A DNA stretch of 59,919 nt. Origin: an uncultured Ignavibacteria bacterium. GTDB lineage: Bacteria > Bacteroidota > Ignavibacteria > Tepidaquicellales > Tepidaquicellaceae. How positions within the stretch are numbered: position 1 is the first letter of the stretch; each line of letters opens with the position of its first letter. Position numbers and translations under genes: made by a program. This document shows positions 53,922 to 59,915 of the stretch, piece by piece. The notes below the pieces were generated by a model. The model saw only the letters and a program-made list of their open reading frames with translations. It was not told the origin of the DNA and did no database searches. Where the stretch lies: NCBI GenBank assembly GCA_937872315.1, contig CALMST010000019.1:1-59919 (forward strand). Direction: 5' to 3'.

Positions 53922-56777
53922 TTAAAAGTTAAGATTCATTGCAAGTTCTGTCACCTCTTCAAGTGATATTTTTTTACCGGATTCCATTTCTGTTAAAAAT
54001 TCCTTAGCACCAAGTTTTTGATTCAGGTATTTTTTTGTTTTATCAATTTCAATTTTCAATATTTCCAATGGTTCATTTTCGAATGAATAAAATGCTTCTT
54101 CTGTAAAGCCTAATATTTTAGCAGCCTTAACAGGATATTTTTCACTTATTGCCTGAGAAATTCCTATGAGACTGTTATATATTCCGAACTTGTTGTTTAA
54201 ATCAATCCTTATATTTAAACTTTCCAGATGAAGATTCAACGCAACTTGACTCTCGCCTGAATCAAATTTTATAAATCCGAGCATGTTCTTTGAATCAGCC
54301 AGAACTTTCTTATTTCCCATTTCAGCATTTATTTCCAAGCTTTCACATAAGTATTCTTCCGCCTTAGCTTTAAACCCAAGATAAGAATAACAAGCGCTCA
54401 GATTATTCAGAATCTCAATAATGCCTCTTTTTTCCTTTATGTCTCTGAGAATATACAAACTCTCTTCAAGATAGATTCTGGCTGTTTCATAATCGGAATT
54501 ATGCTCAGCAAGTTTTCCGAGATTATTCAAAGCCATTGCCTTTCCTCTGCTGTCCTGAAGTTTCCTGTAAAGATTTAAACTTTCAGTAAAGACTTTTTCC
54601 GCATATTCATATTCTCCCAGATTAACCAGTGGAGCACCGAGATTCAGCAGACAGTCTGCTGCAAGATGATCATCACCCAGTTCATTGAATAACTTGAAAC
54701 TCTCCTCGCCATGATACTTTGCTTTTTCAAATTCACCCTTTGCATATTCGATAATTCCCAGATTAGTATGAGAAACCCCTAATCCTTTTTTATCATTTAA
54801 AAGTTCGTTGATCTTAAAACTTTTTTCATAAAAAGATTGGGCTTTTTCATAATTTCCTTTAATCCAGTTAAATGTACCCATCCATTGAAATGCTTTTCTT
54901 CTTATATCCTGAGAAAATTCTTCAGGATCTAAAATCAGCTCTTCTATATAACTCATAGCTTCAGAAATATAACCCCTTGATTCCCAAAACCTGCTGAGAG
55001 TTATTGCAAGATATAATCCTTTTTCTTTAAGCTCCCTGACAATTGAAGTTGTGATAGCAGTCCTGAAATTAAAATTTTCAAATTCCAGTTTATCGAGCCA
55101 CTCTTTTTGATCCGCTCCTTCTATTTCCTTTCTGGCTTTTTCAGCAAATGTTATATAGTGATCAAGATGTTTTAATAAAACATTCTCCAGCTCACCTGAT
55201 TCCACCAGCATCTGCTCGCCGTATTCTCTGATCGTTTCCAGGATCCTGAATCTTCCGTCTTCCACACAGGATGTTATAAGAGATTTCTCAATAAGCTTGG
55301 AAAGAAGATCTATTATTTCAAATTTATTTAACCTCTCATCTGAGCAAACTTCTTCAGCAGCTTCGAGAGTCCAGCCGTTTGAGAATACCGATATTCTGTT
55401 CAATAAAAGTTTCTCATTTATCAGAAGAAGATCATAACTCCAGTCCACAAGCGCTCTTAGAGTTTGCTGCCTGGGTAAAGCTGTTCTAACTCCCGCGTTA
55501 AGAAATCGGAATCTGTCATTAAGCCGGTCTTTTATCATTTCAAGAGAAAAAGTATTGACACGTGATGCTGCAAGCTCAATTGCAAGTGGGATCCCGTCAA
55601 GCTGAATGCATATATCCCGCAAAACTCCTGCATTCTTATCGGTTACCTTAAAATCATGTTTTACAGCTTTGGCTCTTTCAACGAATAATTTTACAGATTC
55701 ATAATTCATAATTTCTTCCGCATTTAAATCAATTTTCGTATCAGGATTTTTCATTGATGAAACATAAAAGATCTGTTCCCCCGGAATTCTTAAAGATTCT
55801 CTGCTGGATGTTATAATCTTCACGTTCCTGCATCCGGATAATATCTTCACAGTCAATTCAGAAACTGAATTAATAATCTGCTCGCAGTTATCAATAATCA
55901 ACAGCAGCTCTTTATCCTGCAGATATTCCAGTAATGATATTTCTAGTGACTTTCCCGGATCTTCAATTATTCCGAATACTTTTGCTGCTGATCTTACAAG
56001 CATTTTATCTTCTGTAACAGGTGATACATCAGCAAACCATACACCGTTCCCGAAATCATCAATCAGATCAGCTGCTACCTGTAAAGCTAACCTGGTCTTT
56101 CCCGCGCCTCCGGGTCCAAGAATTGTCAGTAAAGAATTTTTCTTTACTAATTCCTTAATAGCAGAAATTTCTTTCTGTCTCCCTATGAAACTTGTATTCT
56201 GAACTGGCAGATTATTCGGTCGGGCATCCAAAGTCTTTAATGGAGGAAATTCTTCACGAAGATTTTTTGATAATACCTGGAACAACCTGATCGGTTTTTT
56301 AAGATCTTTTAATCTTCTTTCACCAAGATCCCTGAAAGAAATATATTCAGGAAGTTTTTCCAGTGAAGATATATATGTTTCATTGGATATGATGATCTGC
56401 CCGCCATATGCTGAAGACATGATCCGAGCTGTTCTGGCCAGTGTCATATATCCATGATAATTGCTTCCGTCCCATTCCGCCTCTCCGGTATGTATGCCAA
56501 TTCTTATCTTAATTTCAGCTCCGTCCCAATTATGAGAGGCAAGGTTTAACTGAGCTTCTACACCTGCCTGTACTGCATTTTCAGCATTTTCAAAGGCACA
56601 ACAGAATGCATCGCCGATTATCTTGAAAACAAATCCTTTATTTGACTCAAATGTATTTCTTAATATTGAATTATGTATCTCCAGAGCTGCAGGCAATTTA
56701 CCGGGTTGATTTTGAGCTAACAAAGTGCTTCCTTCGATATCGGTAAACAGAAAAGTTACGTTTACATTAGGTTCCAT
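53922..56777 (-). CDS. Class III nucleotide cyclase - NB-ARC-like ATPase - TPR protein (paralogue 1)
   Basis: This 951-residue protein has three parts. Residues 1-170: a class III adenylate/guanylate cyclase domain with both metal-binding aspartates, Asp13 (FTDIEGST) and Asp56 (IIGDAFCCAF); the transition-state asparagine position (in ARTARIM) is Ala114 and Arg118 is kept. Residues ~196-450: a STAND/NB-ARC-type ATPase with Walker A GPGGAGKTR (Lys227), Walker B LLLIIDNCEQ and SREPL-type sensor (TSSRESLRIPGE). Residues ~600-900: about seven tetratricopeptide repeats of 40 residues. The architecture resembles mycobacterial cyclase-ATPase regulators, but has a TPR end instead of a LuxR helix-turn-helix. 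Cyclase activity is uncertain because of the Asn loss. The paralogue follows upstream in the same orientation. Confidence 0.85.
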   Translation of the reverse strand: MEPNVNVTFLFTDIEGSTLLAQNQPGKLPAALEIHNSILRNTFESNKGFVFKIIGDAFCCAFENAENAVQAGVEAQLNLASHNWDGAEIKIRIGIHTGEAEWDGSNYHGYMTLARTARIMSSAYGGQIIISNETYISSLEKLPEYISFRDLGERRLKDLKKPIRLFQVLSKNLREEFPPLKTLDARPNNLPVQNTSFIGRQKEISAIKELVKKNSLLTILGPGGAGKTRLALQVAADLIDDFGNGVWFADVSPVTEDKMLVRSAAKVFGIIEDPGKSLEISLLEYLQDKELLLIIDNCEQIINSVSELTVKILSGCRNVKIITSSRESLRIPGEQIFYVSSMKNPDTKIDLNAEEIMNYESVKLFVERAKAVKHDFKVTDKNAGVLRDICIQLDGIPLAIELAASRVNTFSLEMIKDRLNDRFRFLNAGVRTALPRQQTLRALVDWSYDLLLINEKLLLNRISVFSNGWTLEAAEEVCSDERLNKFEIIDLLSKLIEKSLITSCVEDGRFRILETIREYGEQMLVESGELENVLLKHLDHYITFAEKARKEIEGADQKEWLDKLEFENFNFRTAITTSIVRELKEKGLYLAITLSRFWESRGYISEAMSYIEELILDPEEFSQDIRRKAFQWMGTFNWIKGNYEKAQSFYEKSFKINELLNDKKGLGVSHTNLGIIEYAKGEFEKAKYHGEESFKLFNELGDDHLAADCLLNLGAPLVNLGEYEYAEKVFTESLNLYRKLQDSRGKAMALNNLGKLAEHNSDYETARIYLEESLYILRDIKEKRGIIEILNNLSACYSYLGFKAKAEEYLCESLEINAEMGNKKVLADSKNMLGFIKFDSGESQVALNLHLESLNIRIDLNNKFGIYNSLIGISQAISEKYPVKAAKILGFTEEAFYSFENEPLEILKIEIDKTKKYLNQKLGAKEFLTEMESGKKISLEEVTELAMNLNF

Positions 56778-57041
56778 ATTACTACGTTTATTGTATCAAT
56801 ACAAATCAATAAAGGATTTATAATTAATAATATTTTATAGATTCCAAAAAAAAAATAAAATTGAATATTGAAGTTTAACGGACTTAAATTGGTTCACTTT
56901 TAACAGTATTCTCGCAAATATTTCTAAGGTGTAAAGTCTTTTCTTTTAAAATTTTCGGAGCCATTTATATTAAGTTTACTAAAATAATTATTTTGAAATT
57001 CCTTTTCCAGTTGAAGCATTTATGTATTAAATATTATAATA
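56778..57041. other. Spacer between the tandem cyclase paralogues
   Basis: 264 A/T-rich bases between two same-strand paralogues. No hairpin terminator and no clear promoter; whether the two genes share a transcript cannot be settled by eye. Confidence 0.4.
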
Positions 57042-59915
57042 TCAATTATCAATTTTCATATTTTGTCCGATCGCATATTCTAGAGCTTCATGAAGACTCA
57101 TCGATTCCCCCTCTGAAAATAATTTTTCAAATTCAGATATTTCAATGTGAGATCTGAGATCTTTTTTTACGTCTTCAATTCTTTTCAATTCAGCATCTAT
57201 TAAATTTTTTTGCGATGATTTAAGAAGCGGCATGTACTTTCCCGCAATGACGCAGGAGTCCCTGAATTTTTTCATCCTGAAGAAAATATCCGATATGCCT
57301 TCAAAACCTTTTGCGATAGTATAATTATCACCGAGTTCTTCTGCTATATTTATGGCTTCCGTAAACATTCTCATTGCCTTTGAATAATCTTCCTTTTCAA
57401 TCAATATGCTTCCGAGTGTAGATATAGGGGTCACATAAACCCTTCTGTCCCCTATGTCTTTTAATATTACAATACTCTCTTCAAGATATCTCTCAGCTTC
57501 ATCATATTCCTTAAGCATGTATGCTACAGAGCCCAGATTACTTAAAGCAATTGAAATCCCCTGCCTGTCACCAAGCTCTCTTCTCAGAGACAGGCTTTCT
57601 TCAAAAACGGTTTTTGCTTTCTGATAATTACCGTCAAGATAATCCAGTGCTCCAAGATTGCCGATTATTTTTGCCAGTTGCACTGAATCTTTTATTTCTC
57701 TGTAGATTGAAATACCGTCTTCAATTTTTTCCCTCGCTTCTTTATGGAATCCCTGTTGTAAAAGACCGAGAGCAATGTTCTGGAGATTTCGGGCAATGTA
57801 TCCCCGGTTATTGATTTCTTCTGAGATCTTCAGACTCTCTTCTGCAAGATTTTTCAATTCATTATAATCTATAAGGAACAATGCGATCATGCTATGTGCC
57901 ATCAAAGCTGCTGCTTCGCCGTCTTTGTCTTTCAGTTTTCTGAATATAGCAAGGCACCGGTCAAGATGTTTTTTTGATTCGTCATAGTTTCCCTGCTGAA
58001 TGTATAAAAAACCCATGCGGAAAATTGCTCTTGCTCTCCAAAGTTCGTCAGCAGAAGAGGCACTTTCCAGAGCTTTCTGAAGAGACTCAATGCCTTCTGA
58101 AAAATAACTTCGCAGTTCCCAGAATTTACTAAGTATAACACTAAGTTTAAGCGCAGCTTCAGGATCATATTCAAGAGACCATCTCAGGCTTTCACGGAGA
58201 TTTTCATTTTCCGCTGCTATCTTTTGAAGCCATATCTTCTGACCCGCACCTGATAATCCCTTTTCTGAGTTTTCCGCAAACTTTAAAAAATAATCAAAAT
58301 GCTTTTTCCGGTACCGGTTCTTATTTCCCGATTCATTTAATTTTCCTTCACCGTATTTTCTGATAGTCTCCAGCAGATAATAACGATGTCCGTATTCATT
58401 TTCAGTTGTTTTTAAAAGGGATTTATCAGAAAGATTTGATAACAGATCAAGTATCTCAAATTCATCAATATTATCATCTGCACAGATTTCTTCGGTAGCC
58501 TCCAGAGTCCAGCCTCCTGAGAAAACTGAAAATTTCTGAAGAAGTAATTTTTCCTTTTCCGGGAGATAATCATAACTCCAGTCAATCAAGGCTTTTAATG
58601 TCTGTTGTCTTGGCAATAGACTTTTATTACCTCCGGTAAGTAAATTGAATCTGTCATTCAGACGTTCGAGTATTTTTTCTACCGGCATCACTTTTACTCT
58701 AGCTGCCGCGAGCTCTATCGCAAGTGGTATTCCGTCAAGCTTAATGCATAACTGGGCTATTGCTGTCGTGTCTTTGTCATTAAGTTTAAAATCTGTTTTG
58801 ACGGCTTTAGCCCTTTCAATGAAAAGTTTGACGGACTCTGTTTGCAATATTTCCTCCGCAGATTTTTTTTCATAAGAATCAGGTAACTCCATCTGAGATA
58901 AATTGACAATATTTTCACCCGTAAGATGAAGAGGCTCTCTGCTGGTAATAATGATCTTTAGTTTCGGACATTTCGTTAACAGTAATTCCGAGATCTCTGC
59001 GCTCTCTTTCAGGAGATGTTCACAATTATCCAGGATTAGCAAAATCTCCTTCTCCCTGAGAAAATCAGCAAGTACATCAGTCATTTCTCTTTTTACATCC
59101 GGCGCAATTTTTAAAACAGCCATTATCTCCTGAAGAATATGCGGGGAATCTGTGAGTTTGGCTAGCTCAGCTATACATACACCGTAGCCGAACTCATCTA
59201 CAAGTGAAGAGGCCAGATGTACGGCAAGCCTTGTTTTTCCCGTTCCGCCAAACCCTATTATTGAAAGCAACCGGACTTCAGATAGAATTTCTCGTATCTC
59301 CTTTAACTCATTTTTCCTGCCGATAAAACTGGTTAGTTCAAGCGGAAGGTTATTCCACCTTTGATCAACTGTTTTTATCGGAGGAAATTCGGAAGGAATT
59401 TTTTCGGGGACGACCTGATAGATCTGAACTAATTGATTTATATCTTTCAGTTGCCTCTTTCCAAAATCTCTGTAAGAAATTTTATCCGTTAGCTTACCTT
59501 TTAAATCTTCATACACTTCTCCCGATATCAGTATCTGTCCCCCGTTTGATGCTGTCATCAGTCTGTGTACCTTGCTTAAGGTAACATAGCCCGTATAATC
59601 ACCGCCTCCATATTCTGCCTCGCCTGTATGTATTCCTGATTTAATTTTAACAGAGTCAAAATCAATTCTTCTTTCCTCCAGTTTTATCTGAATATTTACA
59701 GCAGCTTTTACAGCTTCTGCAGGGTCATAAAATGCTGCGCAATGCGCCTCATTATTCCTTTTGAAAATAAATCCATTATGTGATTCAATTATCTCTCTAA
59801 ATAGTTTATCAAGACTGTCAAGTGTTGTCTGGAAAGATCCGGGATCTTTTCCGGACGACCCGGAATTTTCATATATTTCAGTGAATAAAAATGTTACGTT
59901 ACCTGTAGGATTCAT
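57042..59915 (-). CDS. Pseudo-cyclase - NB-ARC-like ATPase - TPR protein (paralogue 2)
   Basis: This 957-residue protein aligns residue for residue with paralogue 1 over the first ~120 residues. The class III cyclase domain has both metal-binding aspartates replaced: Glu13 (FTEIYEN, where paralogue 1 has FTDIEGS) and Glu56 (RNNEAHCAAF, where paralogue 1 has IIGDAFCCAF; the conserved Gly-Asp is Asn-Glu). Asn is also missing (Ser114), while Arg118 is kept. The domain should not make cyclic nucleotide. The ATPase (Walker A GFGGTGKTR, Walker B ILLILDNCEH, TSREPLHLTGE) looks intact, and about seven TPRs of 40 residues fill residues ~640-900. Complete at ATG 59915, four bases from the window end, so its promoter is outside. 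Likely a regulatory or scaffolding partner of paralogue 1. Confidence 0.83.
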   Translation of the reverse strand: MNPTGNVTFLFTEIYENSGSSGKDPGSFQTTLDSLDKLFREIIESHNGFIFKRNNEAHCAAFYDPAEAVKAAVNIQIKLEERRIDFDSVKIKSGIHTGEAEYGGGDYTGYVTLSKVHRLMTASNGGQILISGEVYEDLKGKLTDKISYRDFGKRQLKDINQLVQIYQVVPEKIPSEFPPIKTVDQRWNNLPLELTSFIGRKNELKEIREILSEVRLLSIIGFGGTGKTRLAVHLASSLVDEFGYGVCIAELAKLTDSPHILQEIMAVLKIAPDVKREMTDVLADFLREKEILLILDNCEHLLKESAEISELLLTKCPKLKIIITSREPLHLTGENIVNLSQMELPDSYEKKSAEEILQTESVKLFIERAKAVKTDFKLNDKDTTAIAQLCIKLDGIPLAIELAAARVKVMPVEKILERLNDRFNLLTGGNKSLLPRQQTLKALIDWSYDYLPEKEKLLLQKFSVFSGGWTLEATEEICADDNIDEFEILDLLSNLSDKSLLKTTENEYGHRYYLLETIRKYGEGKLNESGNKNRYRKKHFDYFLKFAENSEKGLSGAGQKIWLQKIAAENENLRESLRWSLEYDPEAALKLSVILSKFWELRSYFSEGIESLQKALESASSADELWRARAIFRMGFLYIQQGNYDESKKHLDRCLAIFRKLKDKDGEAAALMAHSMIALFLIDYNELKNLAEESLKISEEINNRGYIARNLQNIALGLLQQGFHKEAREKIEDGISIYREIKDSVQLAKIIGNLGALDYLDGNYQKAKTVFEESLSLRRELGDRQGISIALSNLGSVAYMLKEYDEAERYLEESIVILKDIGDRRVYVTPISTLGSILIEKEDYSKAMRMFTEAINIAEELGDNYTIAKGFEGISDIFFRMKKFRDSCVIAGKYMPLLKSSQKNLIDAELKRIEDVKKDLRSHIEISEFEKLFSEGESMSLHEALEYAIGQNMKIDN

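Follow-up and report, generated by a model that had tools for sequence, protein, structure and literature searches.

Two adjacent cyclase-STAND-TPR genes of an Ignavibacteria bacterium, one with both metal-binding aspartates of its cyclase domain replaced by glutamate

Genes and domains at the locus

The window (the whole stretch of DNA that was analyzed) is a contig of 59,919 bp from an uncultured Ignavibacteria bacterium, whose genome assembly comprises 4.56 Mb in 386 contigs. Analysis of one end of this contig revealed two adjacent genes in the same orientation, here designated P1 and P2, with the following features.

53922 to 56777, minus strand: P1, 951-amino-acid cyclase-STAND-TPR protein with intact metal aspartates (intact open reading frame, Pfam)
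56274 to 56774, minus strand: P1 class III cyclase domain, residues 2 to 168 (Pfam)
56610 to 56612, minus strand: P1 Asp56, second metal aspartate
56739 to 56741, minus strand: P1 Asp13, first metal aspartate
56778 to 57041, no strand: AT-rich gap of 264 bp between P1 and P2
57042 to 59915, minus strand: P2, 957-amino-acid cyclase-STAND-TPR protein with altered metal site (intact open reading frame, Pfam and model)
57096 to 58103, minus strand: P2 TPR superhelix, approximately residues 605 to 940
58566 to 59333, minus strand: P2 STAND/NB-ARC ATPase, approximately residues 195 to 450, with intact Walker A (GFGGTGKT) and Walker B (LLILDN)
59406 to 59912, minus strand: P2 class III cyclase homology domain, residues 2 to 170 (sequence and model match to Ma1120)
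59562 to 59564, minus strand: P2 Arg118, transition-state arginine, retained and invariant across the family
59598 to 59600, minus strand: P2 Asp106, second purine-selecting position, retained
59748 to 59750, minus strand: P2 Glu56 (GAG), replacing the second metal aspartate; also Glu (GAG) in the ortholog, with RNNEA in both
59760 to 59762, minus strand: P2 Lys52, purine-selecting position, retained
59877 to 59879, minus strand: P2 Glu13 (GAA), replacing the first metal aspartate; Asp (GAC) in the 85% identical ortholog

No terminator-like site was found in the gap between the two genes, and an Rfam search returned nothing. The ATG of P2 is positioned 4 bp from the contig end, where the contig stops upstream of the gene, and this start agrees with that of the ortholog. 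No contig continuing upstream of P2 was detected, as the final 140 bases matched themselves alone. The contig is thus broken at the 5' end of P2 (59915 to 59919). The gene convergent to P1 on its other side is presumably DUF2071-like (named by sequence inspection rather than by profile search), and contig C18 of the sister genome G002 is broken inside such a gene. Because the assemblies break at the arrays, the true extent of the arrays is hidden.

Pfam analysis predicted NB-ARC (STAND) and TPR domains in both proteins and a cyclase domain in P1. The cyclase domain of P1 scored 56.6 bits against PF00211 (cut-off, 21.9), and no PF00211 match was listed for P2 at an E value of 0.001. The STAND NTPase profile PF00931 exceeded its cut-off in both proteins, and the Walker residues were conserved in the family alignment. 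The N-terminal domain of P2 was matched by sequence to the cyclase Ma1120 (3.7e-12). The AlphaFold2 model of P2 (mean pLDDT, 85.8) shows a full cyclase fold at approximately residues 1 to 170, with a TM-score of 0.90 on the Ma1120 target, and the best PDB match of its STAND-TPR body was the STAND-TPR protein 6mfv. The class III cyclase fold was therefore assigned to P1 by Pfam and to P2 by sequence and structure, which bears out the cyclase-STAND-TPR architecture given for both copies in a preliminary description of this locus.

Metal-site changes in P2 and in the family

Global alignment of P1 and P2 over residues 1 to 180 contained zero gaps. Of the two aspartates needed for catalytic competence, P1 carries both (D13 and D56) and P2 carries neither (E13 and E56). 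Position 114, usually a transition-state Asn, is Ala in P1 and Ser in P2, and Arg118 is retained in both, as in every scored homologue. The preliminary description had read the gap-free alignment and all of these residues correctly. P2 has further lost G16 (E), S17 (N), L20 (S), H35 (L), G55 (N), and R92 (K), residues that each show at least 98% conservation among intact relatives. It retains Arg118, K52, D106, G94, H96, G98, Y107, G109, Y110, and Q127.

The missing Asn had been taken as a sign of degeneracy, a view that was rejected here. Asn114 was absent from all 65 Ignavibacterial homologues, which carry Ala or Ser, and present in 43 of 61 homologues from outside. The Ignavibacterial proteins share a GY-TLAR motif that contains one residue more than the usual motif. 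Ma1120 from M. avium has Ala in place of this Asn and is active, and its activity was reportedly lost when the Ala was exchanged for Asn (PMC4215837), so the absence of Asn is not decisive. By structure, no solved cyclase domain is closer than Ma1120, and for P2 the sequence comparison gave the same result; Ma1120 differs in having both metal aspartates and in lacking the one-residue insertion.

Both metal aspartates were intact in 60 of the 65 Ignavibacterial homologues and altered in five (residues at the first/second metal position).

P2: E/E
P2 ortholog (G002): D/E
L041:637 (G001): E/E
L077:5181 (G013): E/E, with an extra Glu (SGEEACC)
L074:2903 (G013): G/E

On a tree of the STAND domains, these five proteins fell into four lineages, and a single origin was rejected (p-AU, 4e-10). 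On the tree of the short cyclase domain, three changes suffice and a single origin was not rejected (P = 0.34), which leaves room for domain exchange. The second aspartate was replaced by Glu in every altered lineage, and the first by Gly (Gly13) in one. Thus, 7 of 8 changed metal positions over the four lineages became Glu (binomial P of about 0.0002 to 0.009 for an expected Glu share of 22 to 40%), an excess over random loss that would be consistent with conservative drift or with retention of some acidic function. Of the outside homologues, 59 could be scored at both positions, and a single one of these had an altered second aspartate, again Glu. This Chloroflexi (Anaerolineales) homologue (L132:5947-8895) is naturally D/E and carries its second metal position in SRGEEFF, which recalls the GGEEF diguanylate cyclases.

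G16 was lost in three of the four altered lineages, and H35 likewise; each was lost in 1 of 60 intact members. K52, D106, and R118 were present in all five altered proteins; the K52/D106 pair occurs in 31 of 60 intact members, and its presence in all four lineages has a chance probability of about 0.07. With positions 13 and 56 left aside, pooling of the four lineages revealed changes at 18 of 76 conserved sites in the metal half versus 9 of 108 in the rest (Fisher P = 0.005), while intact members averaged 0.6 and 0.7 changes per protein in these parts. This contrast was mostly driven by P2; L074:2903 alone showed none (1/19 versus 1/27), and the base/Arg half was also somewhat more changed in altered than in intact members (P = 0.01). 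The pattern of a lost metal half and a kept base/Arg half, as in a C2-like domain, is therefore strong in P2 and weak or absent in some other lineages.

Comparison of the cyclase domains of P2 and its ortholog yielded a dN/dS of 0.13, indicating purifying selection. As this protein is retained and very probably does not carry out canonical two-metal catalysis by itself, judging from its residues, a pseudo-cyclase with a noncatalytic or partner role is plausible, and to this extent the preliminary description stands. A different reading, which we consider unlikely but a serious contender, is that P2 carries a cyclase domain in decay or reduced to a structural cap, that the protein acts through its STAND-TPR part, and that the changes reflect relaxed selection and no partner role. 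The loss of many conserved metal-half sites is in line with decay, as is the unusual divergence of the cyclase domain relative to STAND, in which P2 ranks 2nd and its ortholog 3rd of 63 (dN between the two, 0.161 in the cyclase domain and 0.062 in STAND). However, intact pairs show similar cyclase-to-STAND dN ratios, dN/dS is still low, the fold of the modeled domain is complete, and Arg118, K52, D106, and the other residues listed above are retained. Most intact ortholog pairs likewise show faster evolution in the metal half than in the base/Arg segment, so stronger constraint on the base half was dropped as evidence specific to P2. P1 shows the reverse of the P2 pattern, with a long STAND branch (0.88) and a cyclase domain of unremarkable divergence relative to STAND (rank 61 of 63).

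Glutamate might also serve as a metal ligand, in which case P2 would still be active but with a changed metal preference, much as GGEEF diguanylate cyclases function with Glu at a position where others carry Asp. The bias toward Glu at the changed positions and the D/E Chloroflexi homologue are compatible with such activity, and GGEEF is a natural active-site motif of diguanylate cyclases such as WspR (PMC2270323). However, P2 has lost G55, G16, H35, and R92, which are near-invariant in intact members (G16, H35, and R92 also in outside homologues); one lineage has Gly13, and under relaxed selection, too, no replacement of Asp is more conservative than Glu. We therefore regard continued activity of P2 as improbable.

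Family members, orthologs, and gene neighborhood

Members of this family were found in 10 of 391 genomes of the class, with 1 to 11 members each; the family-bearing relatives are metagenome-assembled genomes named Ignavibacteria. Because the genome studied here holds about nine full-length members, P1 and P2 are two members of a family and not an isolated pair. Adjacency is common, since 27 of the 65 family genes have a same-strand family neighbor within 1.5 kb, many of them in tandem arrays.

In the STAND tree, P2 paired with an ortholog from a genome of the same genus (G002, L068:9152-12064; 85% identical), and P1 and P2 were placed in different large clades and not as sisters, so a recent local duplication giving rise to the two was rejected. 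The best match of P1 in G002 was only 47 to 52% identical, and no P1 ortholog was found in that sister genome. There, the P2 ortholog lies in a five-gene array and is followed by a different downstream paralogue and then by a gene that we take to be PPK2-like (by sequence inspection, not by profile search). The nearest relatives of P2 in other genera (G013, G023, G010, and G011) are all D/D. Those in G013 and G023 are solitary among unrelated genes, and no second family gene was seen beside those in G010 and G011 in the 7 to 8 kb fetched. These differing neighbors, the missing P1 ortholog, and the lone or unpaired D/D relatives indicate that P1 and P2 do not form a conserved unit.

The preliminary description had proposed that P2 is the sensor or partner of P1 in a fixed two-gene switch, with one active and one degenerate copy. 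The two genes are adjacent on the same strand, and the E/E copy L077:5181 in G013 directly adjoins an intact copy, but a dedicated switch is very unlikely given the different STAND clades, the absence of a P1 ortholog from the sister genome, the different downstream genes of the P2 ortholog, the frequency of family adjacency, and the 264-bp gap. The paired order expected in relatives was not kept, and of the two Asp-to-Glu changes expected there, Glu56 is conserved in the ortholog and Glu13 is not.

In the putative ortholog pairs L062:7485-10652 versus L069:8808-11921 and L016:331-3381 versus L071:855-3989, the TPR part was 42 to 44% identical versus 69 to 73% for STAND and 70 to 72% for the cyclase domain. 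Several putative ortholog pairs thus look as if the sensor part diversifies.

A defence-like role, also suggested previously, was rejected. In a PADLOC search, PycC models matched P1 weakly (E values of 2e-4 to 3e-3) and P2 not at all, with weak TPR matches besides; the neighbors are housekeeping genes. No cNMP-effector-like neighbor, as expected of a Pycsar system, was seen among the open reading frames of the window, and phage records contained partial matches to the family only. The STAND ATPase with C-terminal TPRs resembles 6mfv and bacterial STAND receptors such as Avs5; here, in contrast, the output is a cyclase, and no defence link was found.

A possible role for the altered cyclase domain

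The best explanation, which we put forward tentatively and at somewhat less than an even chance, is that P2 is a maintained pseudo-cyclase with a dead metal/triphosphate half and a kept base/Arg half, acting as a conditional partner or brake in a multi-paralogue network and not as the dedicated partner of P1. It draws on the observed residues, the separate losses in the STAND tree, the half-site residues retained, the purifying selection, and the domain architecture; loss of catalysis, heterodimerization, the STAND switching cycle, and the second messenger are predictions. In class III cyclases, two chains pair head to tail, and each site consists of the metal half of one chain and the base/Arg half of the other. 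Because each site draws on both subunits in this way, a P2 homodimer would be expected to be inactive. If P2 instead paired with an intact paralogue, one working site might be completed, as in C1/C2 of mammalian adenylyl cyclase, and P2 resembles mammalian C2 in the residues retained. Heterodimers in which one class III cyclase chain makes up for residues missing from the other are known, e.g., the mammalian transmembrane adenylyl cyclase, in which one half provides the metal/phosphate site and the other the base site (PMC8815786). Unlike P2, which has no visible fixed partner, C1 and C2 are fused and co-evolved.

The family may represent expanded Ignavibacterial soluble receptors with a C-terminal TPR sensor, a central STAND ATPase switch, and an N-terminal class III cyclase output. 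Ligand binding by the TPRs would permit oligomerization of the STAND ATPases and bring the cyclase domains together, with P2 as conditional partner or brake among many paralogues. Four proteins with cNMP-binding domains are encoded in the genome and would be possible receivers of the putative second messenger. Among the points against this explanation, the P2 ortholog keeps Asp13, and synteny shows no conserved partner.

No literature on Ignavibacterial cyclases with TPRs was found. The closest parallel is the Mclx set of Mycobacterium (Rv0386, Rv1358, and Rv2488c), in which an N-terminal class III cyclase is likewise followed by AAA/NB-ARC and the paralogues include a copy without a metal residue; the Asn is missing from both Mclx2 and Mclx3, and Mclx2 is without a metal residue as well (PMC4452763). 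The M. tuberculosis Mclx2 protein is an existing precedent for a metal-residue-losing copy in a cyclase-NB-ARC paralogue set. The Mclx proteins differ in having a C-terminal LuxR DNA-binding domain, where the Ignavibacterial family has TPRs and no HTH output; family-wide loss of Asn and a far larger paralogue set also set the Ignavibacterial proteins apart. A similar regulator role was suggested for Mclx2 and Mclx3 (PMC4452763), and P2 retains K52/D106 and Arg118 while its metal ligands are lost, so the degenerate domain might act as an input sensor for the STAND module of the same protein by binding a nucleotide or cyclic nucleotide that it does not turn over, but such putative binding merits little credence, as low NTP affinity would be expected without the metal and phosphate contacts.

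The purine-selecting pair 52/106 covaries across the paralogues (L015 to L017, L041, L062 to L106, and the window genes). Among 60 intact members, K/D was found in 31, E/R in 5, E/K in 4, D/R in 2, and Q/N in 2. A basic residue at position 52 goes with an acidic one at 106 (Fisher P = 9e-11; phylogenetically independent pairs, about 9 to 0). Arrays mix purine-pair types. To our knowledge, the E/R, E/K, and D/R pairs are not signatures of ATP or GTP cyclases.

As a doubtful extension of the partner-or-brake explanation, recurrent metal-dead pseudo-cyclases might contribute only the base half to mixed STAND-receptor complexes. Output would then need two ligands (an AND gate), and the purine would be chosen by the K/D, E/R, E/K, or D/R pair of that subunit. 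If the partner model is true, the C1/C2 split of mammalian adenylyl cyclase would have a bacterial counterpart, encoded by separate genes, that arose several times in NLR-like receptors, and the family would provide a natural setting in which to test how pseudo-enzymes turn into regulators. Even without the partner model, the covarying purine-selection pairs form a testable set for substrate choice by class III cyclases.
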